In this document: piece after piece, positions 5,034-57,584 of the stretch
Layout: every line of letters starts with the position of its first letter
Numbering within the stretch: position 1 is the stretch's first letter
Source of the DNA: Onishia taeanensis
Lineage (GTDB): Bacteria; Pseudomonadota; Gammaproteobacteria; Pseudomonadales; Halomonadaceae
Assembly: GCF_003268885.1 (NCBI RefSeq)
Contig: NZ_QLSX01000007.1
Location: 62,001-126,000, forward strand
Direction: 5' to 3'
DNA length: 64,000 nt
Made by a program: the position numbers and the translations under genes
Notes under the pieces: generated by a model
What the model saw: only the letters and a program-made list of their open reading frames with translations
What the model was told of the DNA's origin: nothing
The model's database searches: none

Positions 5034-5098
5034 AATAGCCCTTGGGAATAGTTCTTAGGAATAGCCCTTAGAAATGGCTCTTTGAAAAGGCTCTGTAG
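5034..5098. repeat. 13-bp tandem array, five units
   Basis: Consecutive 13-mers: AATAGCCCTTGGG, AATAGTTCTTAGG, AATAGCCCTTAGA, AATGGCTCTTTGA, AAAGGCTCTGTAG. The period is exact and the units diverge progressively to the right. No protein is encoded here. Confidence 0.85.
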
Positions 5099-5191
5099 AC
5101 TGGGACCTGGGCTGGTGAAAATCTGATCATGATAAGAATGGCGGGTCAGTGTCCCGTCGCGATAGCCGCTCTCCCATGAATTTTCACAGCG

Positions 5192-5214
5192 TTATCCACA
5201 GAATCTGTGCATAA
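5192..5214. promoter_or_regulatory. Inverted pair of consensus DnaA boxes
   Basis: TTATCCACA (5192-5200), a 5-base spacer GAATC, then TGTGCATAA (5206-5214), which is TTATGCACA on the other strand. Both match the TTATNCACA consensus exactly. No AT-rich unwinding element or dnaA/dnaN/gidA gene is near, so an origin is not implied. A DnaA-titration, DnaA-reactivation or transcriptional site is possible. Confidence 0.55.
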
Positions 5215-5431
5215 GTTCCGACTGGGCTGGAAAGTCCTCGTGAAGCGGGTAGAATGCGCCCCGTCCTACCTAGCCTCCCTGACTCAGGCCTTTCGAGCCT
5301 GTATGCAGGTTGGCTATTAGCTATTGTGTCGATCCTTGAGGCTCGGCTATAGATCGTCACGTTTGATCGTTATCGTCATTGCCATCGTCCTGATGCATGA
5401 CCACTTTCGTTACCGTTGGGGAGAGCGTTTG

Positions 5432-6781
5432 GTGCGTAGTCTGCCGGCAACCCTGCCGATCCTGTTCGTCTGTGAAATCAGCTTCCTGCTCGGCCATGGC
5501 TTGATCATGACCCTGCTTGGCGTGCGTATGTCGTTGGAGGGGTTCCCCTCGCAGATGGCGGGCCTTCTGATGTCGAGCTTTTCGTTTGGCTTCGTGATCG
5601 GTAGCTACTGGCTCGAAAAGCGCATCCGCGCCGTGGGACACATCCGCGTCTTCGCCGCCTGTGCGGCGACACTCGCGGTCACCGCCATGCTGCACGGACT
5701 CTGGGTCAACCCCTGGGCTTGGTTGGTCTGGCGGGTCTTCGGCGGCGGTGCCACGGCGGGCCTGCTGATGGTGATGGAGTCGTGGGTTTCCGGTGAGTCC
5801 AGCAACGATAACCGCGGCAAGGTGCTGGGCTGGTATCTGGTCATCTCGACGCTGTCGCTGGCGGGTGGTCAATGGCTATTGAACAGCGCCGATCCCGCCA
5901 CGATGGTGCTGTTTTCGGTCGCGGGCATGCTGTTCGCCATGTCGCTGGTACCGCTGTCGATCCACCGTATTCATGGCCCGCGGGCGGCCCAGGAGCTCAA
6001 GCCTCAGAAGATCAAGCTCCGTGAACTGTTCCGGCGTGCACCGGTGGGACTGGTGGGTGCCTTCACGGCAGGCCTGATGGTGCAGGCCTTCTTTGCCATG
6101 ACCCCCTATTACGGTCAGGAAATTGGTCTGTCGACCGGTCAGACTGCCCAGTTCATGGCGATTACCACCTTGGTGGCGTTGTTTGCTCAGTGGGGACTGG
6201 GGCGGCTGTCCGACCGTATCGACCGCCGCAAGGTGATCCTTGCCATGGCGGCGATCATGGCGGTCTCCGGGGCCTTTATCTCGGTAGCCGCAAGGGTCGA
6301 CTACCTGATGCTGCTGCTGGTGGCGAGCTTCCATACCGCCATGCTGCATACGCTCTACTCCTTGAGCCTTGCGCATACCAATGATTGGCTTGAGCCTGAA
6401 GAGATCGTGGCGGCCAACGGCAAGCTGATGATGACCTATGGCGTCGGCTCGATCGTCGGTCCCTTCGGCGCTTCCCTGGTAATGCAGGTGATTGGTCCTG
6501 ATGGCCTGTGGTTCTTTCTTGGCGCAGTGGCGCTGACGCTTGCCGGCTTCATTAGTCTGCGGCTGCTGATCCGTCGTGGCATTGCGAGGGAAGATGTGGA
6601 GCAGGAGCCTTTTGTGGCTATGCCGGTGCTGGAGACCCAGCATTACCTGAATGAACTCGATCCGCGTCGCGAACCCGTGCAGTTCGAGCTGGACCTGCAG
6701 GGCGAATCGCTGTCGGACGAAAACCGCTATACGCGAGAGGAAGAAGACCCAGAACTAGAACCCACCACCACGGCGGCGTGA
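5432..6781 (+). CDS. MFS transporter, YcaD-like (UMF2-type)
   Basis: A 449-residue inner-membrane transporter with about twelve hydrophobic helices. The segment MESWVSGESSNDNRG after the fourth or fifth helix is characteristic of the YcaD-like group. The inter-domain loop contains the MFS-type GLGRLSDRIDRRK block in the second half. The C-terminal tail of about 70 residues is hydrophilic and acidic. Start choice: GTG at 5432 has GGGGAG eight bases upstream; ATG at 5393 is in frame but lacks a ribosome site, and the frame extends to 5324. The substrate is unknown. No partner gene is adjacent, and a shared hairpin separates it from trxA. Confidence 0.8.
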   Translation: MRSLPATLPILFVCEISFLLGHGLIMTLLGVRMSLEGFPSQMAGLLMSSFSFGFVIGSYWLEKRIRAVGHIRVFAACAATLAVTAMLHGLWVNPWAWLVWRVFGGGATAGLLMVMESWVSGESSNDNRGKVLGWYLVISTLSLAGGQWLLNSADPATMVLFSVAGMLFAMSLVPLSIHRIHGPRAAQELKPQKIKLRELFRRAPVGLVGAFTAGLMVQAFFAMTPYYGQEIGLSTGQTAQFMAITTLVALFAQWGLGRLSDRIDRRKVILAMAAIMAVSGAFISVAARVDYLMLLLVASFHTAMLHTLYSLSLAHTNDWLEPEEIVAANGKLMMTYGVGSIVGPFGASLVMQVIGPDGLWFFLGAVALTLAGFISLRLLIRRGIAREDVEQEPFVAMPVLETQHYLNELDPRREPVQFELDLQGESLSDENRYTREEEDPELEPTTTAA

Positions 6782-6795
6782 GAAGGCATCAGTAA

Positions 6796-6829
6796 AACGC
6801 CCAGTTCCGTCAGAGCGGACCTGGGCGTT
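6796..6829 (-). terminator. Terminator between the MFS gene and trxA
   Basis: Nine-base stem AACGCCCAG / CTGGGCGTT with an inner TCCG/CGGA pairing. The A-run at 6794-6797 gives a U-tract on the minus strand, so it serves trxA and may also stop MFS transcription. Confidence 0.75.
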
Positions 6830-6851
6830 GCATGACGATAAGTGGCCGCGC

Positions 6852-7175: not shown

Positions 7176-7400
7176 GTATCTCTCTCCTTTAGCATCGCGT
7201 AATGAATGCCGGGTGTTTGCACAAACGTCGTCCGGCGCCAGTGCACCCACCTTAGCGCCTCGGGAATTTAGTTCGCAAGCTCATTTTTACATGCGTTCGT
7301 CATGTCCATGTGGCAGTGGTAACCGTAGCCCTGCCGCCGCAGATGAGACTGTGACCCGGAAGACAGCCTTGAGGAGCTCCATGAAACCGTCCTGGAGGGA

Positions 7401-8168
7401 TCAGGCGATCTCACAGCGAGTGTGCTGGGGGAGCAGCAGTTCGGCTGAGCGATCATGCTTGCCCGGCAGGCAAGGCTGGATCAGCGCCAGGCCACCGAGG
7501 GTAATGCGGTGCTCGTCACCGCCGGCGAAGGCGAGCCGCTGTGAACAGGTCGGATAGAAGCGGTAGTTGAGCAGTGCCGATACCGGAAAGACGCCGTGAT
7601 GGCGGTCGCTGCTACTGTCCATGCCCGCCTGTTCCAACTCGGCATCCAGAGTGTTGATGTCACTGCCCAGGCGCTCGCAGTCGAAGCCGGCGTGATGAAG
7701 CCGTGGCCCCATCACGGCAAGCCAGGCCGCCAGCGGATGAGCGCGCTGTAACAGGCAGAAGGTGTCCCAGTCCGGCATTGGCCAGGGGCGACCTCTTGCC
7801 AGTAGGTTCTGGCCTCGCGTGTCTTCCTGAAGTGCCTGGGCGACCAGTGCCTGAAGAATCTCTCGGGGCTCTCGCGTCAGGGTGCCCAGCTGAAGTTCAC
7901 CGAGTACCAGCCAGGGGCCATCATCGGGGGGCGCATAGAGTGATACCAGCAGGCCTCGATCTGCCATGGCATGTCGCTCTGTCGCGCGATAGCCGAACTG
8001 GTTGAGTGTGGGCAGCAGCTTGGCGGCGGCAAAGGGCCCATGATTCAGGGTCAGCAAGGCGAGGAACTCGGGTTCGCTGCCCACCGGCCACAGCCGAAGG
8101 CCACCGATCTCCGGGTGCAGATGGATGTAGTCCAGCCACAACTGCTGGAGAAATTCTTGGCGTTGCAT
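7401..8168 (-). CDS. DUF1338-family (2-oxoadipate dioxygenase/decarboxylase-like) protein, divergent
   Basis: A 255-residue protein that I align by eye to the short DUF1338 group (VOC-like fold, non-haem iron). Matching blocks are the N-terminal LWLDYIHLHPE, the FGYRATERHAMADRGL region, LVLGELQLG, ARGRPWPMPDWDTF and LAAWLAVMGPRLHHAGFD. The metal-ligand candidates Glu in LGELQ and His in RLHHAGFD remain. The first His, expected in the segment reading EFLALLTLNHG, appears displaced or lost. Activity on 2-oxo acids is known for larger family members (HglS/YdcJ); here function is unknown. The gene stands alone, about 320 bases from grxA, and both are on the minus strand. Confidence 0.6.
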   Translation of the reverse strand: MQRQEFLQQLWLDYIHLHPEIGGLRLWPVGSEPEFLALLTLNHGPFAAAKLLPTLNQFGYRATERHAMADRGLLVSLYAPPDDGPWLVLGELQLGTLTREPREILQALVAQALQEDTRGQNLLARGRPWPMPDWDTFCLLQRAHPLAAWLAVMGPRLHHAGFDCERLGSDINTLDAELEQAGMDSSSDRHHGVFPVSALLNYRFYPTCSQRLAFAGGDEHRITLGGLALIQPCLPGKHDRSAELLLPQHTRCEIA

Positions 8169-8299
8169 CGGACGCTCTCTCCCTGACGTCGAGCCTTAGG
8201 GTATTCCACTGAGTATAGGTGCAGCGGGCCTCTAGGCTTTCAACGCGAGCGAGATGCAACCGACCGGGTGCGGCTATTGTCCTTTGGCCTCAAACGAAA

Positions 8300-8400: not shown

Positions 8401-8460
8401 GTACCTATGCTGTCAGTACCCATGAAGTTTGTACCTATGTAGTAAGTACGTGTTCTTTCT
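8401..8460. repeat. 15-bp tandem array, three to four units
   Basis: Units GTACCTATGCTGTCA, GTACCCATGAAGTTT, GTACCTATGTAGTAA and a partial fourth beginning GTACGTG. The period is exact and the 5' half of each unit is conserved. Confidence 0.75.
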
Positions 8461-8489
8461 CAAGAGTTCGTCTGAAGGGGTCTAGCCTC

Positions 8490-8765
8490 TTACTGCTCTG
8501 CGCCTTCCGGCATCAGGGCGTTGTCGCTAACGTATTGGTTGAACTCGGTGAAGCCACCCACGTGGGTCTGATCAACGAAAATCTGCGGTACGGTTTCGAC
8601 CGGCTTGCCGATGGTCTTTTCCATATCGGCCTTGCTGATGCCTTCTTCATGGATGTCGATATAGCGATAGCCGCTGATGGCGCTGGCATCGCTCAGCTTT
8701 TCGGCGAGTTCTTTGGCGCGAACGCAGAAGGGGCAACCGGGGCGACCGAAGATAACAACAAACAT
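8490..8765 (-). CDS. grxA: Glutaredoxin 1 (GrxA type)
   Basis: A 91-residue dithiol glutaredoxin that reduces protein or mixed disulfides using glutathione. The redox site GCPFC gives Cys11 and Cys14, followed by VRAKELAEKL as in E. coli GrxA. The cis-Pro block ETVPQIFVDQ and the glutathione-binding GGFTEF loop are intact. The start at 8765 is preceded by AAGGAG, and a longer open frame to 8822 has no family similarity. The gene is monocistronic, with a terminator about 170 bases beyond its stop. Confidence 0.93.
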   Translation of the reverse strand: MFVVIFGRPGCPFCVRAKELAEKLSDASAISGYRYIDIHEEGISKADMEKTIGKPVETVPQIFVDQTHVGGFTEFNQYVSDNALMPEGAEQ

Positions 8766-8909: not shown

Positions 8910-9731
8910 TTAGCCGGTCTCGTGTCGGTCTTCATCGGCGCGCACCAGCAGCTTGGCCAAGTCGCCGTGGATATCTGGGGCACTGACCAGCAGGTTTTCT
9001 CCGTAGAGGTCTTCTGGGATGCTCGACGGGCAGGCATAGAGATGGCCGGTGCGAGCGCCAGCCTCGCGAGCAATCAGGACGCCAGCGGCAAAGTCCCAGG
9101 GAGAGACGCTTTCGTAGTAGGCATCGAGGCGGCCGCAAGCCACATTGCACAGGTCGAGGGCGGCGGCGCCGTTACGGCGCACATCCTGACAGTACTCGAG
9201 TACGGCGGCCAGGCGACGGATCAGCGGCGGTCGACTGTCGCGACGATAGGGAAAGCCGGTGGCCACCAGGCTGTTGGTCAGCTGCGAAGCGCGGCTGACG
9301 CGAATTCTCTCGTCATTGCGCCATGAGCCCTGGCCGCGCACTGCGGTAAAGGTTTCGCCGAGGAAGGGGGCATGGACGACGCCGATCTCGGTGCGGCCAT
9401 CCTTGACCCAGGCGATGGACACCGCCACGTGGGCAAGGCCATGCGCGAAATTGACGGTGCCATCAATGGGGTCCACCACCCAGAGTGCGCCCGACTGCTC
9501 AATGGCGCCGCGATCCGGCGACAGCTCTTCGGTCAGTCGCGCTTCGCCGGGGAAGTGCTCTTCGAGGGCGCGCCCGATCAGGGTGTCGACGGCGACATCG
9601 GTATCCGTCACCAGCTCGTTCCCGGCTTTGTAGCGCTGGGAGAAGTCCTGTGACTGACGGGCGTCGATGATGGCCTGGCCGGCCTGTCTGGCGATGTCGA
9701 TGGCGATCTCGAGGCGTTGGGCAGTCTGCAT
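8910..9731 (-). CDS. Inositol monophosphatase family protein (CysQ/SuhB-like)
   Basis: A Mg-dependent phosphatase of the IMPase superfamily, 273 residues. The metal and phosphate site is complete: Glu68/Glu69 in LTEEL, DPIDGT at 87-92, and the distal PWDFAAG with Asp213. The likely substrate is inositol-1-phosphate or a nucleotide 3'-phosphate; the sequence alone does not decide, and SuhB-type co-factor roles in rRNA transcription are known for relatives. The start at 9731 gives a normal N-terminus, while the open frame continues to 9788. It is a single gene with no operon partner. Confidence 0.85.
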   Translation of the reverse strand: MQTAQRLEIAIDIARQAGQAIIDARQSQDFSQRYKAGNELVTDTDVAVDTLIGRALEEHFPGEARLTEELSPDRGAIEQSGALWVVDPIDGTVNFAHGLAHVAVSIAWVKDGRTEIGVVHAPFLGETFTAVRGQGSWRNDERIRVSRASQLTNSLVATGFPYRRDSRPPLIRRLAAVLEYCQDVRRNGAAALDLCNVACGRLDAYYESVSPWDFAAGVLIAREAGARTGHLYACPSSIPEDLYGENLLVSAPDIHGDLAKLLVRADEDRHETG

Positions 9732-10033
9732 GGCGGCTCCGCAGCGGTGAGGGAAAATTCGTATTGTCGGAAGTTCGCATTCTAGCATTACGTGGCTCTT
9801 ATGGCGTCTCCGCTTGCCGCATATCCCTGTCCATCTCTATATCGCTATTAACGTAGCTTGCCCTGTTTTAGCCCACGCGTTATTCACTGCAGTGCTTGCC
9901 CGCACGGCCTAGGTCTTTCGTCTGAACACCCGTATATGTTGCAGCGCCGCACTGGTGTTTTCCGCAAGCCTCATCGTATGCTGACTTAGGATCTCCGCCT
10001 TGCGGAGTGTCATGCCTTTTACAGGAGTTAGCG
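9732..10033. other. Divergent intergenic region upstream of bdhA
   Basis: About 300 bases. I see no gene, no clear sigma-70 promoter and no repeat beyond a ten-base palindrome CACTGCAGTG at 9885-9894. It must hold the promoters for the two divergent genes. Confidence 0.5.
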
Positions 10034-10810
10034 ATGAGTACCACGTCACAGGAGGCATCTCCGCGCGTTGCCTTGGTCACCGGGACCACCAGCGGTATCG
10101 GGGCAGCAGTGGTCGAGGAATTCTGCCGCCAAGGCCATCAGGTACTGGCGGTGGATTTCAACCCTGATGGTCAGGCAGTGGCTGAAGCGGCTGGCGCGGT
10201 CTTCTTTCAGGCGGATCTGACCGATGGGAATGCGTGCCGTGCGGCGGTGGCTGAGACGCTGCGTCGCTTCGGGCGCCTGGATATCTTGGTCAACAATGCC
10301 GGTATCCAGCATGTGTCCAGCATCGAAGAGTTTCCGGAGGCCAAGTGGCGCCAGATCATCGACCTGATGCTGACCGCGCCCTTCCTGCTGACGCAGGCGG
10401 CCTGGCCGTCGATGCGCGAGGGTGGATGGGGGCGCATCATCAACATCGCTTCGGTGCACGCTCAAGTCGCTTCACCCGGCAAAGCCGCCTACATCAGTGC
10501 CAAACACGGCATGATTGGCCTGACCAAGACCGCGGCGCTGGAGGGGGGCAGTCAGGGCATCACTGCCAACGCTATCTGCCCGGCCTATGTGAAGACGCCG
10601 CTGGTCGATAATCAGATTGCCGACCAGGCCAAGCTCAATGACATGGATGAGCAGCAGGTCATCGAACAGATCATGCTCAAGAATGCCGCGGTCAAACGCC
10701 TGATCGAGCCGGGCGAAGTGGCATCACTGGTCGCCTACCTGGCCTCGGATCTTGCTGGCGCTGTCACCGGGGCGAGCTGGAACATCGACCTGGGCTGGAC
10801 CGCCCAATAA
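10034..10810 (+). CDS. bdhA: 3-hydroxybutyrate dehydrogenase (SDR)
   Basis: Short-chain dehydrogenase of 258 residues that oxidises (R)-3-hydroxybutyrate to acetoacetate with NAD. The cofactor loop GTTSGIG is at 17-23, NNAG at 87-90, and the catalytic Ser140, Tyr153 and Lys157 (YISAK) are intact. The C-terminal signature NIDLGWTAQ is typical for this enzyme. The start at 10034 has AGGAG seven bases upstream. It would feed the scoAB CoA-transferase, although the two loci are about 5 kb apart and separately transcribed. Its 3' end faces roxR across a perfect inverted repeat. Confidence 0.92.
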   Translation: MSTTSQEASPRVALVTGTTSGIGAAVVEEFCRQGHQVLAVDFNPDGQAVAEAAGAVFFQADLTDGNACRAAVAETLRRFGRLDILVNNAGIQHVSSIEEFPEAKWRQIIDLMLTAPFLLTQAAWPSMREGGWGRIINIASVHAQVASPGKAAYISAKHGMIGLTKTAALEGGSQGITANAICPAYVKTPLVDNQIADQAKLNDMDEQQVIEQIMLKNAAVKRLIEPGEVASLVAYLASDLAGAVTGASWNIDLGWTAQ

Positions 10811-11496: not shown

Positions 11497-11548
11497 CCCT
11501 CTGTCCAAGCCCCTTGTTCACAATCCTCTGTTCACAAACTCTTGTTCA
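11497..11548. repeat. 13-bp tandem array, four units, at the roxS stop codon
   Basis: Units CCCTCTGTCCAAG, CCCCTTGTTCACA, ATCCTCTGTTCAC and AAACTCTTGTTCA. The last unit contains the roxS stop (11546-11548). The array sits in the roxS-roxR gap. Confidence 0.7.
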
Positions 11549-13599: not shown

Positions 13600-15183
13600 A
13601 TGAGCGAGCTTGAGACTCAAGTCGATCTGCGACGCACCTTCGCGATCATCTCCCACCCCGACGCGGGCAAGACCACCATCACCGAGAAAATGCTGCTGTT
13701 CGGGAACGCCATCCAGATGGCGGGTTCCGTGAAGAGCAAGCGCAATGACCGCCATGCCACTTCCGACTGGATGAAGATGGAGCAGGAGCGCGGCATCTCG
13801 GTGACTACCTCGGTGATGCAGTTCCCCTACAAGGGACGTATCGTCAATCTACTCGATACCCCGGGCCACGAGGACTTCTCCGAGGATACCTACCGCACGC
13901 TGACCGCAGTGGACTCGGCGCTGATGGTCATCGACGGTGCCAAGGGCGTCGAGGACCGTACCATCAAGCTGATGGATGTCTGTCGCCTGCGTACCACGCC
14001 GATCCTCACCTTCATCAACAAGATGGACCGCGATACTCGCGACCCCATCGAGGTGATGGACGAAGTCGAGACGGTGCTCAATATCCAGTGTGCGCCCATG
14101 ACCTGGCCGATCGGCATGGGGCGTCATTTCCGTGGGGTTTATCACCTCTACAACGACGTCATCCACCTCTACAAGCAGGGGCAGGGCAGCCGCATTCCCG
14201 AGGATGTACGCATCGAGGGACTCGATAGTGCCGAGGTCGATGAGGTCCTGGGTGAGTCCCAGGCCGAGGAACTGCGGATGGAGGTCGAGCTGGTTCGTGG
14301 CGCCTCCCATGAGTTCGATCTTGACGCCTATCGTCGCGGCGAACTGACGCCCGTCTACTTCGGCACCGCCATGGGCAATTTCGGCGTCCGTGAGATGCTG
14401 GATGGCTTCGTCGAGTATGCACCGACGCCACAGCCCCGTGAGACCGATTCGCGTGAGGTGGATGCCAACGACGAGCGTTTCACCGGCTTCGTGTTCAAGA
14501 TTCAGGCCAATATGGATCCCAAGCACCGCGACCGGGTGGCCTTCCTGCGAGTCTGTTCCGGCAAGTACGACCGCAACATGAAGATGCGTCACGTGCGTAT
14601 CGGCAAGGATGTCAAAGTGCCCGACGCCTTGACCTTCATGGCTTCGGATCGTGCGCATGTGGAAGAGGCCTGGCCCGGCGATATCATCGGCCTGCATAAC
14701 CACGGCACCATCCAGATCGGCGATACCTTCACGGTCGGCGAGGACATGCGTTTCACCGGTATTCCGCACTTTGCGCCGGAGCTGTTCAAGCGCGTACGCC
14801 TCAAGGACCCGCTGAAGATGAAGGCGCTGCAGAAGGGCCTTCAGCAGCTCTCCGAGGAAGGTGCCACTCAGGTTTTCATGCCCCTGGACAACAACGACCT
14901 GATCCTCGGCGCTGTGGGTACGCTGCAGTTCGACGTGGTCGCCCACCGGCTCAAGGAAGAGTACAAGGTCGATTGCCTCTATGAGGGGGTCAACGTTCAG
15001 ACGGCTCGCTGGATCTATTGCGATGATCCCAAGAAGCTCGACGAGTTCAAACGCAAGGCGAGCACCAACCTGGCCTATGATGGCGGCGGCTGTTTGACCT
15101 ATATCGCGCCGACCCGCGTCAACCTGCAGATGACCCAGGAACGCTGGCCGGATATCCGCTTCAGCGCGACACGCGAGCACTAA
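13600..15183 (+). CDS. prfC: Peptide chain release factor 3
   Basis: Translational GTPase of 527 residues that removes RF1/RF2 from the ribosome after termination. The G1 motif (about 18-26, SHPDAGKTT), DTPGHED and NKMD boxes are intact, and the length matches the family (about 528). The ATG at 13600 gives the standard N-terminus MSELETQV; an in-frame GTG at 13588 is less likely. tatD follows after a gap of about 40 bases that begins with a 14-bp tandem duplication at the stop codon. Confidence 0.96.
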
Positions 15184-15214
15184 TGCCTAAGCCCTAATTC
15201 CTAAGCACTAAGCC
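15181..15214. repeat. 14-bp tandem duplication at the prfC stop codon
   Basis: TAATGCCTAAGCCC, TAATTCCTAAGCAC, then TAAGCC partial. The first unit begins with the prfC stop codon and the array runs into the tatD leader. Confidence 0.55.
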
Positions 15215-16109: not shown

Positions 16110-16148
16110 AGCCCTTGTGAGGAGCCCTTGTGATCAGCCCTTGTGAGT
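16110..16148. repeat. 13-bp tandem triplication overlapping the 3' end of ygfZ
   Basis: AGCCCTTGTGAGG, AGCCCTTGTGATC, AGCCCTTGTGAGT: an 11-base core repeated three times at exact 13-base spacing. The third unit encodes the last residues of YgfZ, and the stop lies at the junction of units two and three. Confidence 0.85.
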
Positions 16149-28984: not shown

Positions 28985-29010
28985 CTCGTTAGAGGTGGCT
29001 CGTTAGGTGG
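28985..29010. repeat. Short tandem duplication after rbsK
   Basis: CTCGTTAGAGGTGG followed directly by CTCGTTAGGTGG: two units that differ by a two-base indel. It lies 14 bases past the rbsK stop. Confidence 0.5.
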
Positions 29011-29023
29011 CTTGCCAGAAAGG

Positions 29024-34748: not shown

Positions 34749-34889
34749 CGTTCCGGCCACGATAATGCCCCACCTTCAGGAGTATGCAGCGTCGAGCATC
34801 TTATCCTTGGCCAGGCACCGGCGCTTTTATATTATCAAACGCTGTTTGTATATACTGGTCAGCCCATGGGGCGACCAGTATAGTGATTC

Positions 34890-34973
34890 AGCACTCTCTC
34901 ACGCGCTCTCTCAAGAGCTCTCTCAAGAGCTCTCTCAAGAACTATCTCAAGAGCTATCTCGAAAAATATCTCA
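34890..34973. repeat. 12-bp tandem array, seven units, directly upstream of ruvA
   Basis: Units: AGCACTCTCTCA, CGCGCTCTCTCA, AGAGCTCTCTCA twice, AGAACTATCTCA, AGAGCTATCTCG, AAAAATATCTCA. The 84-base array ends 14 bases before the ruvA ATG and its last bases form part of the AAGGA ribosome site. In frame with ruvA it would encode repeating (K/R)S(L/Y)(L) motifs, but the family N-terminus is MIGRL at 34988. Confidence 0.9.
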
Positions 34974-34987: not shown

Positions 34988-35602
34988 ATGATTGGACGCC
35001 TGCGTGGCACTCTGCTGGAAAAGCAGCCGCCCTGGCTGGTCGTGGATGTAGGCGGGGTAGGCTATGAGCTCGAAGCCTCCATGACGACTCTGCTGGCCCT
35101 GCCCGGTGTCGGTGAAACGATACAGTTGCACACTCATCTGACCGTGCGCGAGGATGCGCACCTGCTGTTTGGCTTCGCCCGAGAAAAGGAACGTGCCCTG
35201 TTCAGGGCCCTGATCAAGGTCAACGGGGTAGGCCCTAAGCTGGCCCTGGCCATCCTCTCCGGTATGGACGAGGATCAGTTCATTCGTTGTGTAATGGATG
35301 ACGACGTCAAGGCCCTGACCCGACTACCGGGCGTCGGCAAGAAGACCGCCGAGCGGCTGGTGATCGAAATGCGCGACCGATTCCCGCATTGGACCCAGGC
35401 AACCGAGGGTGCTCTTGCCGGGCTCGAACAGGCAGCCGGCACAGGCGCCTCGGCAAGCGATTCCCGCGCCGATGCCGAAGCCGCGCTGGTGGCGCTGGGC
35501 TACAAGCCCACCGAAGCCGCCAAGATGATCGCCGCTCAAGATGAGGGCCTGTCGACCGAGGCCCTGATCAAGGGCGCTCTGGCCCGCAAGTTGGCGGGTT
35601 GA
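34988..35602 (+). CDS. ruvA: Holliday junction branch-migration protein RuvA
   Basis: A 204-residue DNA-binding subunit that forms the tetrameric platform on Holliday junctions for RuvB. It starts [12 protein letters not shown], has the helix-hairpin-helix blocks [13 protein letters not shown] and [13 protein letters not shown], and ends in the RuvB-binding domain (about 155-204). The ATG at 34988 is the family start, with AAGGA ten bases before it. The frame is open to 34784 through a tandem array, which could allow an N-terminal extension. ruvB begins 80 bases downstream. Confidence 0.95.
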
Positions 35603-42206: not shown

Positions 42207-42968
42207 ATGAGCTGCAAGATCGATTATCAGGCGCGTCCTGATCTACTGGCGGGGCGGGTGATCCTGGTCACCGGGGCCGGCGACGGCATCGGCCATGCCG
42301 CCGCGCTGAGCTATGCTCGCCATGGCGCTACGGTGATTTTGCTCGGTCGGACGATCGCCAAGCTGGAGGCCACCTATGATGCCATCGAGGCGGCGGGTGG
42401 CCCTCAGCCGGCTATTTTTCCGCTGAATTTCGAAGGCGCCACGCTCAAGGACTACCACGACATGGCCGAGACGCTCGACAAGGAGTTCGGCCGCCTCGAC
42501 GGTATCCTTCACAACGCGAGTCTGCTGGGGCGGTTGACGCCCTTCGAGCAGTACAACCCCGCGCTGTGGGAGCAGGTCATGCAGGTCAATATCAACGGTC
42601 CGATCTGGATGACACAGGCGCTCTTGCCGCTGCTAAAAACCTCTGACGATGCCTCGGTGGTCTTCACCTCCTCGAGCGTGGGACGCAAGGGGCGGGCGTT
42701 CTGGGGCGCCTATGCGGTTTCCAAGGCGGCGACCGAGAATTTCAGCGAATTGTTGGCCGATGAGCTGGAGAATGTCTCCAACATTCGCGTCAACACCCTG
42801 AATCCGGGTGCCACACGCACGCAGATGCGCAAGACGGCCTATCCCGCCGAGGACCCTAAGCGGCTGCGTACTCCTGACGAGATCATGCCGACCTATCTGT
42901 GGCTGATCGGCCCTGATAGTCAGGGGCATAGCGGCGAGCGCTTCGACGCTCAACCGCCGAAGGCCTGA
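42207..42968 (+). CDS. yciK: YciK-family short-chain dehydrogenase
   Basis: SDR of 253 residues. The cofactor loop GAGDGIG (23-29), a catalytic Ser in TSSSVG and the YAVSK block are present; LHNASLLGRLTPFEQ is typical of YciK. The substrate is unknown. The ATG at 42207 has CAAGGAG upstream. The homologue in Pseudomonas sits beside mupP-ubiG, and the same neighbourhood exists here. Confidence 0.88.
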   Translation: MSCKIDYQARPDLLAGRVILVTGAGDGIGHAAALSYARHGATVILLGRTIAKLEATYDAIEAAGGPQPAIFPLNFEGATLKDYHDMAETLDKEFGRLDGILHNASLLGRLTPFEQYNPALWEQVMQVNINGPIWMTQALLPLLKTSDDASVVFTSSSVGRKGRAFWGAYAVSKAATENFSELLADELENVSNIRVNTLNPGATRTQMRKTAYPAEDPKRLRTPDEIMPTYLWLIGPDSQGHSGERFDAQPPKA

Positions 42969-43030
42969 TATCAGGACACTGATCAGTGACCATCGCGTTG
43001 AAATACGCGCTCAGCGGTAAGGCTTAGAGG

Positions 43031-43063
43031 GGCTCTTCTCGGGTTCCTCTGAGGTTCTTCAAG
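43031..43063. repeat. 11-bp tandem array after yciK, three units
   Basis: GGCTCTTCTCG, GGTTCCTCTGA, GGTTCTTCAAG. It immediately precedes and slightly overlaps the 13-bp array at 43061. Confidence 0.5.
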
Positions 43064-43112
43064 GCAACATCTCAAGGCACAACCCCAAGGCACAATCCCA
43101 AGGCAAAACGAC
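43061..43112. repeat. 13-bp tandem array, four units, after yciK
   Basis: AAGGCAACATCTC, AAGGCACAACCCC, AAGGCACAATCCC, AAGGCAAAACGAC at exact 13-base spacing. It runs into the left arm of the terminator. Confidence 0.85.
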
Positions 43113-43179: not shown

Positions 43180-43842
43180 TCAGTATCCGAGGGCTCTGGC
43201 CAGTGCCGCGGGCGTGTCGAAGACATGATCCGCCGACCAGGCATGGATGTCCTCAACTTCGTCCAGATAGCCATAGCCCACAGCGACGGCGGTCATGCCG
43301 GCGGCGCGGGCGGCCTCGATATCTCGGCGATGATCACCGATATACCAGCATTCCTCGGCCGTGACGCCCAGCCGGCGCGCGGCTTCCCACAGCGGCGCTG
43401 GATCGGGCTTCTTGACCGGAAGATCATCGGCGCAGAGGAAAGCTCCCGGGGTAAGAGCCAGGGCCTCGATCAGGGGAGCGGCATAGGCGCGGGGCTTGTT
43501 GGTGACAATGCCCCAGGCCCGTGGCGATACGGCCCAGGCCGTGATCAGCGGTGCGAGCCCCTCGAATAGTCGGCTCTCGGCGGCCACATCCTGTCCGTAA
43601 GCGTCGAGCAGAAAGCTTCGGGCTGCATCATGCTGGGCGTGGTCGCGCTCGAGTCCCAGTGCCAGAGTGACCAGCGCGCTGCCGCCATTGGACACCTGAG
43701 CCCGGATCGTTTCGTAGGGCAGGGCAGGCAGGTCATGGTAGGCGCGCAGGGCATTGGTGGCCCGCGCCAGGTCGGGAGCGGTGTCCACCAGGGTGCCATC
43801 CAGATCAAAGAGCAGGGCACGAGGGGGCGTCGCTAGGCTCAT
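43180..43842 (-). CDS. mupP: N-acetylmuramic acid 6-phosphate phosphatase MupP (HAD family)
   Basis: A 220-residue HAD phosphatase with the motif DLDGTLVDT (Asp13, Asp15), a TNKPR motif II and the [14 protein letters not shown] motif. By sequence it resembles phosphoglycolate phosphatases; by context it is MupP, which sits between ubiG and yciK in Pseudomonas and works in peptidoglycan recycling. The two readings are hard to separate without a search. It overlaps ubiG by four bases (ATGA). Confidence 0.8.
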
Positions 43843-44663
43843 GTCGTCTCTCGCCGGGTCTGGATCATGTAGTTCACCGAGACATCGTAGGCATCCAGGC
43901 GATAGCGACGGGTCAGCGGGTTGTAGGTCAGTCCGGTCTGCTCGCCGAGGTGCAGACCTGCGGCACGCGCCCAGCCAGCGAGCTCGGCAGGACGAATGAA
44001 CTTCTTGTAGTCATGGGTGCCTCGGGGCAGGAGCCGCAGCACGTACTCGGCGCCGAGGATCGCAAAGGCGTAGGCCTTGGGGTTGCGGTTGATGGTCGAA
44101 AAGAACACCTGTCCCCCCGGCTTGACCAGGGTGGCACAGGCGCGAACCACGGCCGCAGGGTCCGGGACGTGCTCGAGCATCTCAAGGCAGGTGACAATGT
44201 CATAGGCCTCAGGCTGTTCGGCGGCCATTTCTTCGGCGCTGGCCTGGCGATAGTCGACCTCCACGCCGCTCTCCTCGCGATGCAGCCGGGCCACCGCCAG
44301 CGGCGCTTCACCCATGTCGATGCCGGTTACCCGAGCGCCACGGTGCGCCATGGCTTCGGCTAGGATCCCGCCGCCACAGCCGACGTCGATGACGCGCTTG
44401 CCCGCCAGGCCCGACCGGGCGTCGATGAAATCAAGGCGCAACGGATTGATCTCATGCAGCGGCTTGAACTCGCTTTCCTTGTCCCACCAGCGGCTGGCCA
44501 GGGCCTCGAACTTGGCCACTTCGGCGGCATCGACATTATCTCGATAGTCGGTGCCGGGGCGGGCGCTTTGGTCTTTCTGTGAGGTTTCCTCTGGGGTTTG
44601 ATCTGGGGTTCGACCTAAACCTTGCTGTGGGGCGTGATGTGACGCCTGGGATTCACTGCTCAT
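43839..44663 (-). CDS. ubiG: 3-demethylubiquinone-9 3-methyltransferase (UbiG)
   Basis: SAM-dependent O-methyltransferase of 274 residues in ubiquinone synthesis. The SAM loop is [16 protein letters not shown], followed by [11 protein letters not shown] and [23 protein letters not shown] typical of UbiG. The start at 44663 has a GGGAG site. Residues about 1-43 form a Gln/Thr/Glu-rich extension not needed by E. coli UbiG, and its DNA has a 12-bp tandem array. The gene overlaps mupP by four bases. Confidence 0.93.
44579..44614. repeat. 12-bp in-frame tandem array inside the ubiG N-terminal extension
   Basis: GTGAGGTTTCCT, CTGGGGTTTGAT, CTGGGGTTCGAC at exact 12-base spacing; related bases continue to 44638. 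On the coding strand it gives repeats around TPDQ and TPEE. Confidence 0.55.
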
Positions 44664-47285: not shown

Positions 47286-47341
47286 CAGTTGGCTATGCCA
47301 TAATGCAGGGATTCGCTCATCGAACAGATGGTTACAGCAAA

Positions 47342-47367
47342 AGCTAATATTTAAAGTTGATATCTAA
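47342..47367. repeat. 13-bp tandem duplication upstream of galU
   Basis: AGCTAATATTTAA and AGTTGATATCTAA, ten of thirteen bases identical, ending just before the AAAAGGA ribosome site of galU. Confidence 0.45.
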
Positions 47368-47377
47368 AAGGACTGCC

Positions 47378-48271: not shown

Positions 48272-49570
48272 ATGCGCGTTGTCGTACAGGGAAGTGAACT
48301 TGCCGCCGCGACGGCTGCGGCGGCATTGGCAAGCGTGGGTCATCGCGTCACCTGGCAACCTCACGCCGGCCAGCCCTGGGTCGAGCTGGAACAGGCCGAT
48401 TGGCTGACTCGTGAGCCGGAGCTGATCGCCCAGTTGGAGGCGGCCTGTCGCGACGGGGCCCTCACGATCGGCGACACCAAGGCCGAGTCGGCAGCTGAGC
48501 TCACCGAGATCGATATACTTTGGCTGGCCCTGGCCCCGGATCAGCGCGATGCGGCGCAGGCAGCCGTCGAGCAGCTCGCCGCCCGCCAGTCGGCGCCGCT
48601 TGTCGTGATCAACAACTCGACTTTCCCGGTCGGCGAGACCGAACGGCTCGAAGCGCTGATGGGCCATGCCGGCCAGGTCGCCGTGGCGTTGCCGGACATG
48701 CTCGAGGAGGGACGTGCCTGGCAGGTCTTTACCCGCCCGGTGCGCTGGCTGCTGGGCAGCGAGGATACGCGCGCCACGGATCAGGTGCGTGAACTGCTGC
48801 GGGCCTTCAACCGCCGCAGCGAAGTCTTCCAGTGCATGCCGCGACGTGCCGCCGAGCTGACCAAACTAGCCATCAACGGCATGCTGGCCACCCGCATCAG
48901 CTACATGAACGATATTGCCGGTCTGGCCGACACCCTGGGGGTCGATGTCGAGCATGTCCGTCAGGGTATGGGCGCGGATACCCGCATCGGCTATGAGTAT
49001 CTCTATCCGGGCTGCGGCTTCGGTGGCCCAAACTTCTCACGGGACCTGATGCGTCTGGCAGACGTGCAGTCGGCCAGCGGCCGGGGCTCCGCGCTGCTAA
49101 GCCAGGTGCTCGATATCAACGAGCACAAGAAGGAGACCCTCTTCCGCAAACTGTGGGCCTACTTCCAGGGCCAACTTGAGGGTCGCACCGTGGCCATCTG
49201 GGGGGCAGCCTTCAAGCCAGGCACGGCACGCATCGACCATGCACCGGTGTTGCCCTTGCTCGAGGCGCTGTGGGCCCAGGGCGTCAAGGTACGCTTACAC
49301 GACCCGGCCGCTCTTCATGCTCTGCGAGACCGTGTCGGCGAGCATCCGCTGCTCACGCTGTGTGAAGGTGACCCTTATGCGGCCTGCCAGGGGGCCGACG
49401 CGCTGATGCTGGTTACCGAGTGGAAATGCTACTGGAACCCGGACTGGCGCCTGCTCGGCAGCCTCTTGGGCGAACGTTTGATCCTCGACGGACGCAATAT
49501 CTTCGATCCTGACTTCGTGGCAGGTCGCGGCTTGGTCTATCGGGGCATCGGGCGGCGTGCCAATCCCTGA
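48272..49570 (+). CDS. UDP-glucose dehydrogenase family protein lacking the catalytic motifs
   Basis: A 432-residue homologue of Ugd in all three domains. The N-terminal cofactor loop reads QGSELAA (6-12) where GxGYVG is expected, and the acidic residue after the second strand is replaced in VTWQP. The catalytic loop reads GFGGPNFSRD (249-258) where GYGGSCFPKD is usual, so the nucleophile Cys is Asn254 and the catalytic Lys is gone. Lys198 and Asn202 of the central helix remain; Cys248 is two residues before the loop and may be a substitute. Coupled to galU (three-base gap). Either a non-catalytic UDP-sugar-binding protein or a changed enzyme. Confidence 0.75.
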   Translation: MRVVVQGSELAAATAAAALASVGHRVTWQPHAGQPWVELEQADWLTREPELIAQLEAACRDGALTIGDTKAESAAELTEIDILWLALAPDQRDAAQAAVEQLAARQSAPLVVINNSTFPVGETERLEALMGHAGQVAVALPDMLEEGRAWQVFTRPVRWLLGSEDTRATDQVRELLRAFNRRSEVFQCMPRRAAELTKLAINGMLATRISYMNDIAGLADTLGVDVEHVRQGMGADTRIGYEYLYPGCGFGGPNFSRDLMRLADVQSASGRGSALLSQVLDINEHKKETLFRKLWAYFQGQLEGRTVAIWGAAFKPGTARIDHAPVLPLLEALWAQGVKVRLHDPAALHALRDRVGEHPLLTLCEGDPYAACQGADALMLVTEWKCYWNPDWRLLGSLLGERLILDGRNIFDPDFVAGRGLVYRGIGRRANP

Positions 49571-49611
49571 TTGCCGGCTGCTGGCACTGGTTCCAATCGG
49601 GAGCGGGCACT

Positions 49612-49779
49612 TTAAGCCTCAATCCTGCTCCAGCCCAGGCGGGTGTTGATGTCGGTATTGTTGGTGCCTGCCGTCAGCACCTTGATCAATACTTTGCCCG
49701 GACCGGTCGTCGGAATGGGAACCTCTCGATACTCAAGCTTGTCATATTAGCCGGTACCGGTAGTCACTACCGCTTTCAT
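49612..49779 (-). pseudogene. Decayed 5' fragment of a zinc-type alcohol dehydrogenase (MDR family)
   Basis: Read from the ATG at 49779 it gives MKAVVTTGTG, a TAA stop, then YDKLEYREVPIPTTGPG and VLIKVLTAGTNNTDIN up to GWSRIEA and a second stop. This is the beginning of an MDR alcohol dehydrogenase/quinone reductase (about 56 codons) with an internal stop and no remaining catalytic domain. It lies in the gap between the ugd-like gene and sodB. Confidence 0.8.
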
Positions 49780-49830
49780 CATGTCGCTCATGAGCCCGTC
49801 CGTTATCTGCATGAATCGCTGCTAAGAACC

Positions 49831-49860
49831 AAAAAAACCCTCGCCGATGGCGAGGGTTTT
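49831..49860 (-). terminator. sodB terminator
   Basis: Perfect 12-base stem AAAACCCTCGCC / GGCGAGGGTTTT with loop GAT. On the minus strand a run of T residues follows (the A-run at 49831-49837). It is 45 bases after the sodB stop. Confidence 0.9.
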
Positions 49861-49904
49861 GACGCGGGGCACATCTCGGAAGATGTGCTTGTCCGAAACG
49901 CGAG

Positions 49905-50483
49905 TTACGCGAAGTTCTGCGCGACGAAATCCCAGTTAAGGATCTTCCACACGTTTTCGAGATATTTCGGACGCGCATTGCGATAGTCGATGTAGTAGGC
50001 GTGTTCCCACACATCGATGGTCAGCAGCGGGGTTTGGCCGTGAGCGACCGGGGTGTCTGCATCGTCGGTATTGACGATATCCACGCCGCCGTCATCGGTC
50101 TTGATCAGCCAGGTCCAGCCGGAACCGAAGTTACCAGCAGCCTTGGCGTTGAAGGCTTCCTTGAATTCCTCGAAGGAGCCGAACTTGGCGTTGATGGCAT
50201 CGGCCAGCGCACCGGTCGGCGCACCGCCACCGTTCGGGGACAGGCAGTGCCAGTAGAAGGTGTGGTTCCAGACCTGCGCTGCCTGGTTGAACAGGCCGCC
50301 GGAGGCAGACTTGATGATCTCTTCCAGTGACTTGTTAGCATCGTCGGTGCCGTCGGTCATCTGGTTGAGCTTGGTCACATAGGTCTGATGATGCTTGCCA
50401 TAGTGATATTCGAGCGTCTCGGCAGAAATGTGCGGTTCAAGCGCGTTCATTTCGTACGGCAGGGCGGGTAGTTCGAATGCCAT
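49905..50483 (-). CDS. sodB: Superoxide dismutase [Fe]
   Basis: A 192-residue iron superoxide dismutase. Ligands His27, His74, Asp157 and His161 (DVWEHAYY) are in place, and Gln70 in [10 protein letters not shown] is the iron-type residue. The start at 50483 gives [10 protein letters not shown]. It is monocistronic with a strong terminator; a divergent 312-base region separates it from the tamAB operon. Confidence 0.95.
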
Positions 50484-53538: not shown

Positions 53539-56500
53539 ATGAACATACTCAAGGCATGGAGCCGGGCGCTGTTGCGATTACTGCTGTGGTTGCCTATCTG
53601 GCTTATCGGCCTGGTCCTACTCGTGATGGGGCTGGCCCTATCTCCCTGGGGCACCGGACTGCTGCTTGAGCAGGGGCAGTCGAGAGGCTTCTTTACCTAT
53701 CGTGACGCCTCGGGAGCACCGCTTGATCACCTGGTAATAGAGGGGCTCTCTCTTGAGGCAGGGCCGGCCAGCATCGACGTTGAGCGCCTCGAGCTCGACT
53801 GGGCCGACGACTGCCTGCTCGATAGCAAGTTGTGCCTCGACCGTCTGGCTGTAGAAGGGGCGCGAATTCGCCTTGCCGCCAGCGAACCGAGTGCGCCCGA
53901 GCAATCCCCCACCGAGAGCGGGGCTGCACCAAGCATCTATGTCCCGTTCCCGATCGAGTTGCGCGACATCCTCCTCGACGATGTCGATGTGCGTCTTGCC
54001 GACGGCACGCACCTGACGTGGTCGCATTTCCAGACTGGCGCTTCGTTGGACGCTGGCACCCTGACCCTGTCGCCTACCACGCTGTCCGGCATGCGACTGG
54101 CTTTGCCCACCAGCGAGGGGCAGGCCCTGGCCCTTGAACAAACGGCCAGTGCGTCTTCGCCGCTGAGCGCCGGCGCGATCGACAGCGCAGGGAAGGTAGC
54201 CCGACAAACGCCACCGGTGACAAGCGATGCAACCGCATCCAGTGAACCTGCTGTCCCGCTGGCCCAGCGCGAACGCCTCTCTTTGCCGGAGATCACACTG
54301 CCGCTTGCCATAGAGGTGCCGAGCCTGATCATCGAGGATGCTGCACTCACCGGGCCGAGCACTTATCGCATTGATCGTCTGGCGATGAGCCTGTCAGGGC
54401 AGGGCAGCGATATCGAGATATCGCCCCTGACCCTTGCCATGCCCGAGGCCGATGCCCGCCTCGAGGCCAAGGTCACGCTGCGCGATGACTATCCGCTCGA
54501 GGCAAGTCTCAATGGCCAGGTCAAGCAGTTGGCCGCCATGCCGGCGCTTGCCGGTGAACGGCTCGACCTGCGCCTTGACGGCAGCCTGGCCGCTCTGAAG
54601 GTATCGCTGGCTGCCAAGGGGCCGGCGACCGCCCAGCTCGATGCCAGCCTCGACGCCCTGGCCCCCACCTTGCCGTTTGAGCTCAAGCTCGAGTCCGACG
54701 CTCTGCAATGGCCCTTGTCCGGTGCCACGCCCGCCGCTGACACCCCCACCGGCGCGGGAACGAAGGTGGAGCCTTACCGGTTGACTGACCTCAAGGCGCG
54801 TCTGGAGGGGAGTTTGCTCGACTATCGCCTGGCCCTGTCGGCCGAGGCCTCGGGTCCACAGGTTGCGCCCACCCGGCTGGCAGCGACCGGTACCGGCGAT
54901 GCCGAGCACTTTGCCTGGCTGCCGCTATCACTGAAGAGCGGTGACGGCGCTCTGATCAGCAGGGGTAACGTCAACTGGGCCGATGGGTTGACACTCGATG
55001 CTACCGTCAACTTGGACGGACTCGATCCCGGCGCCTACACCACTGCCGTGGCCGGCCGCCTGGACGGCGATGCCACCCTGAGCTTCGTGCAGGCAAATGA
55101 CGGCTGGCGGCTTGGCGTTCCGGAGCTTGCCATCGACGGCACGCTCAATGACCTGCCGGTCTCTCTGTCGGGCAGCCTCAGCGGCAACAGCGACATGCGC
55201 TGGAACATCGAGCGCCTGGATCTTCGCCAGGGCGAGAACCGCCTAACCGCCCAGGGCCAGATTGGCGAACAGATGGACCTGTCAGGCTCGCTTCAGGCGC
55301 CGGGACTCAACGCCCTGTCACCGGATCTTGGCGGCACCCTGCAGGGCGACTTCCAGCTTAGCGGTAGCCTGGACACACCCGCTCTGGCGCTGGATCTGAG
55401 CGGTGAGCGCCTGGTCTTTGCCGAAAACCGCCTCGGCGCCCTGACGCTGCGTGCCCGCACTCAGGGGCTCGAGGATCCTCAACTCGACCTCACACTGGAT
55501 GCGGAGCGCCTGGAGGCCGGTGGGCAGCGGTTATCGCGTCTGACGGTCGGCCTCGACGGGCGACTGTCCGCGCATCGGCTGACCATCGAGGCAACGGCCG
55601 GGCGAGGCATGCCGCTGTCCCGGGCCGGCCTGACGCTCGAGGGCGGACTCAACGCCGACCGCGATCGCTATCAGGGACAGCTGATGCCGCTGGAAGTCGA
55701 TGCTGATGCCGGCACCCTGCGCCTGGACGAAGCCCTGACCTTCGATGTCGACATGGCCAAGGCTGCCGCCAATCTCTCGCCGTTCTGCCTGCGCCGCGAG
55801 GAGGGAGGGCGCCTGTGTAGCACTCAGCCCATCGATGCATCGGCGCAGCAAGGGCGTGCCACACTGCAGCTTACTGAGCTGCCCATGTCGTTACTGGAGC
55901 CATATCTGCCCGTTGGCTGGAAGGCAAGCGGTGACAACAACGCCGACGTAGTGGTCGCCTGGCAGGACCAGGGCAGCAGCTGGTCACTTGATGCCAACCT
56001 CGACAGCCGCCTGGCCATCGAGGCCCAGGATGCCTTTGGCCAGCCCGTCACGCTGCCTACGACCCAGCTGACGCTTAGCGCCAACGCCACCCCTGCGGCC
56101 GCGAATGTCGAGCTCAACCTGGGGCTTGAGCAAGGCGGCAGCGCCAACCTGACGCTGCGGATCGATGACCCCCAAGGGCAAGGGACACTGGAGGGACGTC
56201 TGCAGCTCAAGAGCCTGCAGCTCGCACCTTATCGACCGCTGGCCGGCGATATGGAAACCCTTGAGGGTAGCCTGAACGGCAATATCGCGGTGGGCGGCAC
56301 CCTGGCCTTGCCCAGACTGACCGGCGACCTGACGCTCGATTCGCTGCAAGCGAAGGGCAGCGGTATTCCGATAGCGGTACGCGATGGTGAATTGGCGGTT
56401 CGCTTGCGTGGCGACAGCGGGCAGATCGAAGGGGTGATCCGCAGCGACCAGGGGCGTTTGGACATCCAGGGTGACGCACGCTGGCCAAGTCCTGATAAAT

Positions 56501-57540
56501 GGGAGCTGGCGATGTCGCTCAATGGTCAGGAAGAGCCATTGCAACTGGACATCCCCGATATAGGCCGACTGCGTATCGCCCCGGATATCAGCATCAACGT
56601 GCGGCCTGAGCTGCTAAGCGTGCGCGGCCAGGTCAAGGTGCCCTGGGCGCGCCTGGAGATCGGCCAGATTCCGCCGTCGGCCACCAGTCCTAGCCCTGAC
56701 GAGGTCATCATCACCCGCCGTGACGAACGCCGAGCTCGCCGCGAGGCGACGCGAGCCGAGCAGGCCGGCACCGGCGAGAATACCGCCGACGCACTGGCCT
56801 CGGCGGGTATGGCGACCAGCATCCAGGTCGAGCTTCTGCTGGGCCCTGACATGGACCTCAAGGCCTACGGCCTGGAAACCGGCCTGGACGGCCGCCTGCA
56901 GGTTCGCCAGAGCAGCGGCCCCGTTCAGCTGTTCGGCGAAGTCAGCCTCATAGGCGGCCGCTTCCGCGCCTACGGCCAGGACTTGAGAATCCGTCAGGGC
57001 CAGCTCCTGTTTAGCGGGCCCGCCGATCAGCCGCTGTTGCAGTTCGAGGCGATTCGCAACGAAGACAAGACCCAGGACGGGGTGATTGCCGGCCTACGAG
57101 TCACCGGTTCGGCAACGGCGCCCAGCCTGTCGGTGTTCTCCGAGCCCGCCATGGAAGAATCTCGGGCCTTGTCCTATCTGCTGCGGGGGCGCGCACCCAA
57201 TGATACCGAATCCGACAACAGTGCCCTGACCTCGGCATTGATCGGGCTGTCGCTGTCTCGCACCGGCGGTGCCGTGGGCCAGATTGGCGAGGTCTTCGGC
57301 ATTGGCGACCTGGCCCTCGATACGGCCGGCAGCGGCAATGAGTCCGAGGTCGTGGTCAGCGGGCAACTCAGCGACGATCTGCGTGTCAGCTATGGTGTCG
57401 GGGTATTCGAACCGATTGCCGAACTGACCCTGCGCTACACACTCTGGCGCAATCTATACCTCGAGGCCGTGTCTGGCGCCGCCCAGGCCGTTGACCTGGT
57501 GTATAGCTTCAGCCTCGGCAAGGCGGCCTCCAGGCAATGA
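53539..57540 (+). CDS. tamB: Translocation and assembly module inner-membrane protein TamB
   Basis: A 1333-residue AsmA-like protein with one N-terminal membrane helix (about 10-36) and a long periplasmic beta-taco region. The C-terminal DUF490 domain (about 980-1333) contains [17 protein letters not shown] and [15 protein letters not shown], typical of TamB. It bridges inner and outer membranes and is linked to phospholipid transport in recent work. It begins 21 bases after tamA, and its stop overlaps a possible msrA start (ATGA). Confidence 0.94.
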
Positions 57541-57560
57541 GCCGGTTTTCCTCACTATTT

Positions 57561-57584
57561 CACAAGGTCTTTCATAAGGTCTTT
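57561..57584. repeat. 12-bp tandem duplication between tamB and msrA
   Basis: CACAAGGTCTTT and CATAAGGTCTTT; a related CGTCATCTCAAGG follows into the msrA ribosome site. In frame it would read HKVFHKVF. Confidence 0.6.

Follow-up and report, generated by a model that had tools for sequence, protein, structure and literature searches.

Why do short tandem arrays, each built from a unit of its own, recur at one gene junction after another in a single stretch of the chromosome of Onishia taeanensis, a salt-loving member of the Halomonadaceae? The stretch, called the window here, comprises 64,000 nucleotides (contig NZ_QLSX01000007.1, positions 62,001 to 126,000 of the forward strand), and a preliminary description had listed twelve such arrays in it. 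We found that intergenic arrays are several times denser in this lineage than in most of the related genera sampled. The arrays belong to a known kind, the minisatellites. We consider it quite probable that they are home-grown, arising by recurrent local tandem duplication (slippage) with a step near 13 bp and being tolerated in non-coding DNA.

Arrays in the window and their density across genomes

Each listed array was scored with a lag-match finder of our own (+1 for a match, -1.5 for a mismatch) and ranked against 1000 dinucleotide shuffles of a stretch comprising the array and 50 bp on either side; Tandem Repeats Finder was also run on the window, and most of the listed arrays were picked up by both programs. 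Nine of the twelve were clear, with at most 2 of 1000 local shuffles reaching the score. The arrays are imperfect and their units abut without spacers. For eight arrays no shuffle reached the score. These are a 13-bp array of ~4.7 copies (5034..5094) at the junction of a CoA-transferase gene (4184-4846) and an MFS transporter gene (5363-6781); an imperfect 15-bp array (8401..8449, score 11.5) upstream of an open reading frame (ORF; 7401-8168, minus strand) and downstream of a glutaredoxin gene (8490-8765, minus strand); a 14-bp array (15176..15211, plus strand) in the stop region of prfC, at its junction with a TatD-like gene; a 13-bp array of ~3 copies (16110..16146, minus strand) whose unit consists of the last codons and stop of a ygfZ-like gene; a 12-bp array of ~7 copies (34891..34972, plus strand, score 45) in the leader of ruvA; a 13-bp array of ~3.8 copies (43059..43108, plus strand) at the convergent junction of a YciK-family oxidoreductase gene (42207-42968) and a HAD-type phosphatase gene (43180-43842, minus strand); an in-frame 12-bp array (44574..44616, minus strand) in the N-terminal stretch of ubiG, ahead of the part that matches the UbiG model; and a 12-bp array of 2.3 copies (57558..57585, plus strand) between tamB and msrA, in the leader or an N-terminal extension of msrA. 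The ninth (11515..11548), whose score was reached in 2 of 1000 shuffles, lies between a histidine-kinase-like gene and a response-regulator gene, both on the minus strand; first described as four 13-bp units from 11497, it is better read as 2.7 units of 14 bp with indels. The remaining three, listed at 43031, 47342 and 28985, proved weak: an 11-bp array at 43030..43057 (28 of 1000 shuffles, drawn from 42976-43058 so that the neighbouring array was excluded), a 13-bp array at 47340..47368 before a nucleotidyltransferase gene (9 of 1000) and a 14/12-bp array at 28993..29012 (35 of 1000).

The excess over chance extends beyond the listed sites. Over the whole window, four intergenic arrays scored at least 13, compared with an average of 0.1 in ten shuffles, and a 464-kb sample of the genome held 27 intergenic arrays with a score of at least 15 against none in three rounds of shuffling. 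We then surveyed 864 kb of the 3,736,068-bp genome (40 stretches of 20 kb plus the window) for arrays with a score of at least 14 and periods of 5-40 bp, periods below 5 bp lying outside the scan. Gene starts and the split into coding and intergenic DNA came from a simple gene caller of our own, not from annotation. The arrays at 34891, 44574 and 57558 fall within ORFs as drawn by this caller; the first is a leader miscalled as coding and the third probably is too, and the miscalled ruvA leader makes the intergenic counts slightly low. The survey yielded 75 arrays in 128,171 intergenic bp and 50 arrays in 735,829 coding bp, so that intergenic DNA is 8.6 times denser per base (5.85 vs 0.68 per 10 kb). 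The preliminary description would have been refuted by a density no higher than in shuffles or equal within coding sequence; neither was the case. By extrapolation, the whole genome would hold ~320 intergenic arrays.

When the same survey was applied to related genomes, five congeners (G001-G005) gave 16 arrays in 45,889 intergenic bp (3.49 per 10 kb), the sample being only the region syntenic to the window for four of them, with 100 kb extra for G003. Thirteen other genera of Halomonadaceae (80-100 kb each) gave 11 arrays in 130,004 intergenic bp (0.85 per 10 kb), and five more distant genomes of the order gave 5 in 38,884 bp (1.29 per 10 kb). The intergenic density of the Onishia taeanensis genome thus exceeds that of the 13 other genera with p ~2e-13, and for periods of 10-18 bp alone the counts are 58 and 4. 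In Chromohalobacter, eight ruvA-region loci with 11,932 intergenic bp held no intergenic array at a score of 15.

Arrays are not spread evenly among junction types in this genome: convergent junctions hold 27 arrays in 18,421 bp, the highest density (14.66 per 10 kb), co-directional junctions 36 in 65,574 bp and divergent junctions 11 in 38,904 bp. A gradient from convergent to divergent junctions is expected if promoters exclude arrays. The 16 congener arrays show no such gradient (3 in 7,093 bp, 7 in 25,128 bp and 6 in 11,830 bp, respectively). The preliminary description had placed the arrays at stop codons, leaders or N-terminal extensions; gene junctions are indeed where they sit, but their edges lie near stops and starts no more often than random placement gives. 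Among 51 arrays of the six Onishia genomes, 11 of 53 edges fell within 12 bp of a stop (12.5 expected) and 5 of 49 within 12 bp of a start (9.9 expected). Arrays at stop codons and in leaders are what tolerance in non-coding DNA predicts.

Unit length, reading frame and unit sequence

Intergenic periods of 5-6, 7-9, 10-11, 12-13, 14-15, 16-18, 19-21, 22-27 and 28-40 bp were found in 1, 4, 4, 20, 20, 14, 2, 6 and 4 arrays. Counts thus peak at 12-15 bp (40 of 75), in agreement with the preferred period near 12-13 bp proposed at the outset. Since the finder recovers implanted arrays better, overall, at longer periods (power 0.67-0.92 at 10 bp and at least 0.96 from 18 bp up), the drop above 18 bp is real and that below 10 bp partly reflects lost power. 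A threshold-free lag test on the same genome gave an excess of 0.91, 0.45, 0.42 and 0.66% at lags 12, 13, 14 and 15, and a smaller one of 0.70, 0.29, 0.16 and 0.43% (standard error (SE) 0.13) once arrays were masked.

The reading frame filters these periods. In coding DNA every one of the 50 arrays has a period that is a multiple of three, compared with 32 of the 75 intergenic arrays, and 26 of the 50 have a period of 12 or 15 bp. Because these periods dominate coding arrays too, the counts are most simply explained by a single mutational process on which the reading frame acts as a filter.

The units are largely unrelated in sequence. As first described, the arrays have broadly no sequence in common, and no motif dominates among 77 units, in which AGAG, TAGA, CTCTTA, AGCCCT and similar words are only mildly enriched. 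A recurring CAAGG- or CAAGAG-like core had also been proposed. It did not hold as a general feature: AAGAG is mildly enriched (8 vs 1.97 expected) and CAAGG falls outside the 12 most enriched 5-mers. Where such a core occurs in the ruvA and msrA leaders, it probably represents the Shine-Dalgarno region. Pairwise comparison of 60 units with periods of 10-18 bp found 11 pairs that share a substring of at least 8 bases, with ~9.5 expected. Units have a G+C fraction of 0.511, against 0.554 in other intergenic DNA, and they fold no better than shuffled units, which removes hairpin-driven slippage from consideration.

These properties bear on the kind of element involved, for which the preliminary description knew of no fitting name. 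The class does have one: head-to-tail units of at least ~10 bp, with a unit sequence particular to each locus, are the marks of minisatellites. Few arrays have units in the microsatellite range (1-6, or up to 9 bp), with 5 of the 75 intergenic arrays at 9 bp or less, though power is lower at short periods. Nor did we find a dispersed repeat with one consensus, of the REP/BIME or STAR type, and at E <= 0.001 the DNA of the ruvA array matches only itself in the genome. A CRISPR array was ruled out, as the units adjoin without spacers.

Origin of the arrays in congeners and in the ruvA leader

Sixty-one junctions of the window were compared, anchored on their flanks, with those of the five congeners (81-90% identity where aligned), and arrays vary by species across them. 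At 15176, where the window has its 14-bp array, four of five congeners have a single AGCACTAA or AGCACTGA, and the next gene lies 13 bp further on. The fifth, G005, has ~185 bp of extra DNA there, of which 87 bp form a 7-bp CTTCCAG array and ~100 bp are not part of an array. At 16110 all five congeners are without an array and carry a single copy of the unit (CCCTTGTG or CCCTTGCG) around the stop codon. The array at 43059 is absent from all five congeners and that at 5034 from all three in which the site could be compared. At 8401, G005 has a 15-bp array in the equivalent junction (score 16.5) and the other four have none; the array at 57558 occurs also in G005 and partly in G004 (by eye). Conversely, the junction at 49570-49905 holds a 13-bp array in two congeners and none in the window. 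These states indicate that arrays were gained in single lineages and that those at 15176 and 16110 arose by the copying of local sequence. Single-copy states together with species-specific arrays bear out the proposal that local duplication, and not dispersal of a mobile repeat, produced them.

The leader of ruvA (34988..35602, plus strand) offers a view of one site across the family. RuvA of the window is 92-98% identical to RuvA of Onishia taeanensis (two records), O. niordana and Halomonas salinarum, and model TIGR00084 matches it from residue 1, so the start lies at 34988. The array lies between a conserved -10-like CAGTATAGTG and the Shine-Dalgarno sequence and ATG of ruvA. Given this conserved start and the non-triplet arrays found at the same place elsewhere, it would be a leader array and not an N-terminal extension. 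All 80 Halomonadaceae loci compared carry CAGTATAGTG or a close form ahead of ruvA, at a median of 53 bp from the start codon. Leader arrays with a score of at least 9 occur in 8 of these loci: three of Onishia with 12-bp units (reported as 24 by the finder in two), one of Halomonas ventosae 1_TX (14 bp) and two of the H. halodenitrificans type (19 bp), for each of which 0 of 200 shuffles reached the score, and weaker ones in Billgrantia campisalis (16 bp) and B. gudaonensis (11 bp), whose scores were reached by a fraction of 0.01 of shuffles, with 80 loci tested. Inspection by eye placed an array at the same position in four of six Onishia genomes (that of the window, G001, G002 and G005), with a degraded array in G004 and no clear array in G003. 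A 14-bp array was likewise seen by eye in G017. The differing units and periods indicate that this leader gained different arrays several times.

Several further observations concern the ruvA leader and its unit. In a H. halodenitrificans leader (L106), an 18-bp array begins in ATAGTGGC, the continuation of the -10 region, and part of the promoter is thus included in the duplication. In 59 of the 80 loci (L032-L111), a palindrome-like element (GAAC or AAAC, 2-4 bases, GTT) lies ahead of the ruvA promoter, within 75 bp upstream of the -10 (34837-34847 in the window), and could be a regulator site. Two congeners carry a second array of nearly the same 12-bp unit (ACTCTCTCAAG-like) as the ruvA leader arrays of these two genomes (G001 L115 2967-3018 and G002 L116 12075-12116), in the junction equivalent to 9731-10034 of the window; a unit may thus occasionally move between sites.

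Two other kinds of repeat were seen. Long near-perfect arrays of 7-8 bp (e.g. CTTCCAG x12) occupy single sites in several Halomonadaceae (G005 L130 15520-15606; G003 L153 12517; G010 L177 11788; G018 L193 17470; G019 L169 5937) and form a class distinct from the imperfect 12-15-bp arrays. In the window, a 48-bp coding repeat of 6 copies (38819-39104) lies in a gene between putative tolR and tolB ORFs; from gene order, the repeat presumably represents the usual TolA helix.

Explanations, rivals and known parallels

In the account we favor, a local stretch of 11-18 bp, mostly 12-15 bp, would be duplicated in place, most likely when the nascent strand slips during replication or gap filling. Further slippage would extend arrays to ~3-7 copies, and point mutation would let them decay. 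The process would act genome-wide, at a raised level in this lineage, and survival would set what is seen: only multiples of three in coding DNA, few surviving arrays at divergent junctions that bear promoters, and tolerance of most arrays in leaders and at 3' ends. Arrays would then be nearly neutral, and some lineage-specific cause would lie behind the raised level and the ~13-bp step. A stronger version, in which a process specific to the Onishia lineage with a built-in step of ~13 bp (set, for example, by the footprint of a polymerase or nuclease, or by the length of a primer) seeds arrays across the chromosome, coding and non-coding, is one we offer tentatively and lean against; it would act in a free-living bacterium in which all tested repair families are present.

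This last point comes from profile searches for repair and polymerase families in 19 genomes (6 Onishia and 13 of other genera), which register gene presence only. SbcD, the C-terminal domain of ExoI, RecJ, the 5'-nuclease of PolA, MutS and DnaQ match in all six Onishia genomes, and none of them sets Onishia apart from the other genera. For RecJ, scores fall on both sides of the curated cut-off, with 10 of 19 genomes above it, including all six Onishia. Y-family polymerases gave 4, 1, 4, 2, 2 and 2 matches in G000-G005 (some of them fragments) vs 1-3 elsewhere, which we do not read as a signal. In one genome of another genus, the dnaQ match is split over two adjacent ORFs (G022:C1:1424505-1425226), possibly by a frameshift or sequencing error; the 12,913 bp of intergenic DNA sampled from it held no arrays.

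A rival account sees the arrays as functional regulatory elements selected to tune translation or termination: leader arrays would supply repeated Shine-Dalgarno-like units, arrays at 3' ends would serve as buffers, and copy number would set the level. The ruvA leader array shared at one place by four Onishia genomes, with its recurring TCAAG element (by eye), and the density of arrays at convergent junctions speak for it. However, units of different arrays have for the most part no relation to each other, the majority of window arrays vary from species to species, no attraction to starts or stops is seen, 72 of 80 ruvA leaders score below 9 and coding arrays share the period preference; we regard this account as unlikely. 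Some insertion sequence (IS) families make target duplications of 11-14 bp, and the arrays could be footprints of mobile elements that inserted, were excised and left duplications that later grew. The period peak matches that size, and at 15176 G005 has ~100 bp of non-array DNA beside its 7-bp array, but periods range from 11 to 18 bp and beyond with no fixed length, the units are again largely unrelated and four of five congeners lack an insert at 15176. Mobile elements are thus a very improbable source.

Filling in of staggered breaks followed by Ku/LigD end joining would likewise yield tandem duplications of short, bounded length. Ku (PF02735) had no match in any of the six Onishia genomes, though, and of 13 other genera it matched only in G006 and G018, with 0 and 1 sampled intergenic arrays. 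The Ku route is largely refuted and we give it scant credence, while Ku-independent end joining is possible. Chance or faulty assembly could explain the three weak arrays of the list, but hardly the 27 high-scoring intergenic arrays that no shuffle produced, nor imperfect arrays of similar kind in all five congeners, which are separate assemblies; an artefact, refuted by shuffles and congeners alike, is next to negligible as an explanation.

Several points nonetheless weigh against recurrent local duplication as set out above. Slippage is a presumed chemistry, and loss of the repair genes searched for does not account for the raised level. In the lag test, a clear 12-15-bp excess appears in the Onishia taeanensis genome only: the congeners gave 0.37% at lag 13 and 0.36% at lag 14 with arrays unmasked (SE ~0.22 after masking), and in other genera the values were small, 0.32 and 0.28% at lags 12 and 15. 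Likewise, the excess of coding arrays is clear in this genome only (6.80 per 100 kb, compared with 3.04 in congeners and 2.58 in other genera). Two of the other genera (G008 and G009) reach intergenic densities of 3.15 and 3.26 per 10 kb, like the congeners, on ~10-12 kb of intergenic DNA each. Among the 60 units compared, 43 pairs share a substring of exactly 7 bases, with 26 expected, so some units may be weakly related, and the TCAAG part of the ruvA unit seems by eye better kept than the rest, which could mean selection. Lastly, the duplication process had been called continuing. That claim derives from differences between species at 81-90% identity and not from strains, and copy number was compared across species only, the closest genomes being 88-90% identical.

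Comparable arrays have been reported elsewhere, those of Borgs and those of Methanococcus and Natrialba being the closest parallels. The tandem repeats of Borgs are described as of recent independent origin, rarely conserved between close Borgs and virtually absent from the host; all ORF repeats are divisible by three, compared with only 14-38% of intergenic ones, and units are near-perfect, A-rich and, in the examples given, 18-36 nt long, with 43-65% in ORFs (PMC9879509). The arrays studied here resemble them in the divisible-by-three rule and in independent gain in single lineages, but differ in having imperfect units, a period peak at 12-15 bp and a much higher density in intergenic DNA, here that of a bacterial chromosome. 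A survey of prokaryotes reports that tandem repeats of 6-11 bp are over-represented in the intergenic but not the coding DNA of Methanococcus voltae, M. aeolicus and Natrialba magadii (PMC4060949). The intergenic excess, strong in a few genomes only, is alike, whereas 12-15 bp dominate here and the simple-sequence-repeat patterns of that survey end at 11 bp. Intergenic tandem repeats are also described as proliferating in one lineage of Portiera, that of Bemisia tabaci, with loss of dnaQ and other replication and repair genes (PMC5322561, PMC7821994); Halomonas elongata and Chromohalobacter salexigens served as its free-living relatives (PMC5322561). Short intergenic repeats proliferate in one lineage in both cases, but Portiera is a reduced endosymbiont without dnaQ and Onishia has a dnaQ match. 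Bacterial minisatellites and variable-number tandem repeat (VNTR) loci (see PMC2884548) share the short arrays with a unit particular to each locus; here the density is unusually high, and presence and copy number vary between species (81-90% identity). In a limited search of the Halomonas and Onishia literature, covering titles and the starts of abstracts, no report of such arrays was found, which does not imply absence from print.

Two consequences follow. Duplication can leave Shine-Dalgarno-like or stop-containing units repeated at gene edges as a by-product, so such repeats should be taken for regulatory elements only with caution. If the rate is truly raised, Onishia would provide a culturable, free-living system for studying how minisatellites arise and why their units have a typical length, which is usually investigated in reduced symbionts, Borgs or eukaryotes.

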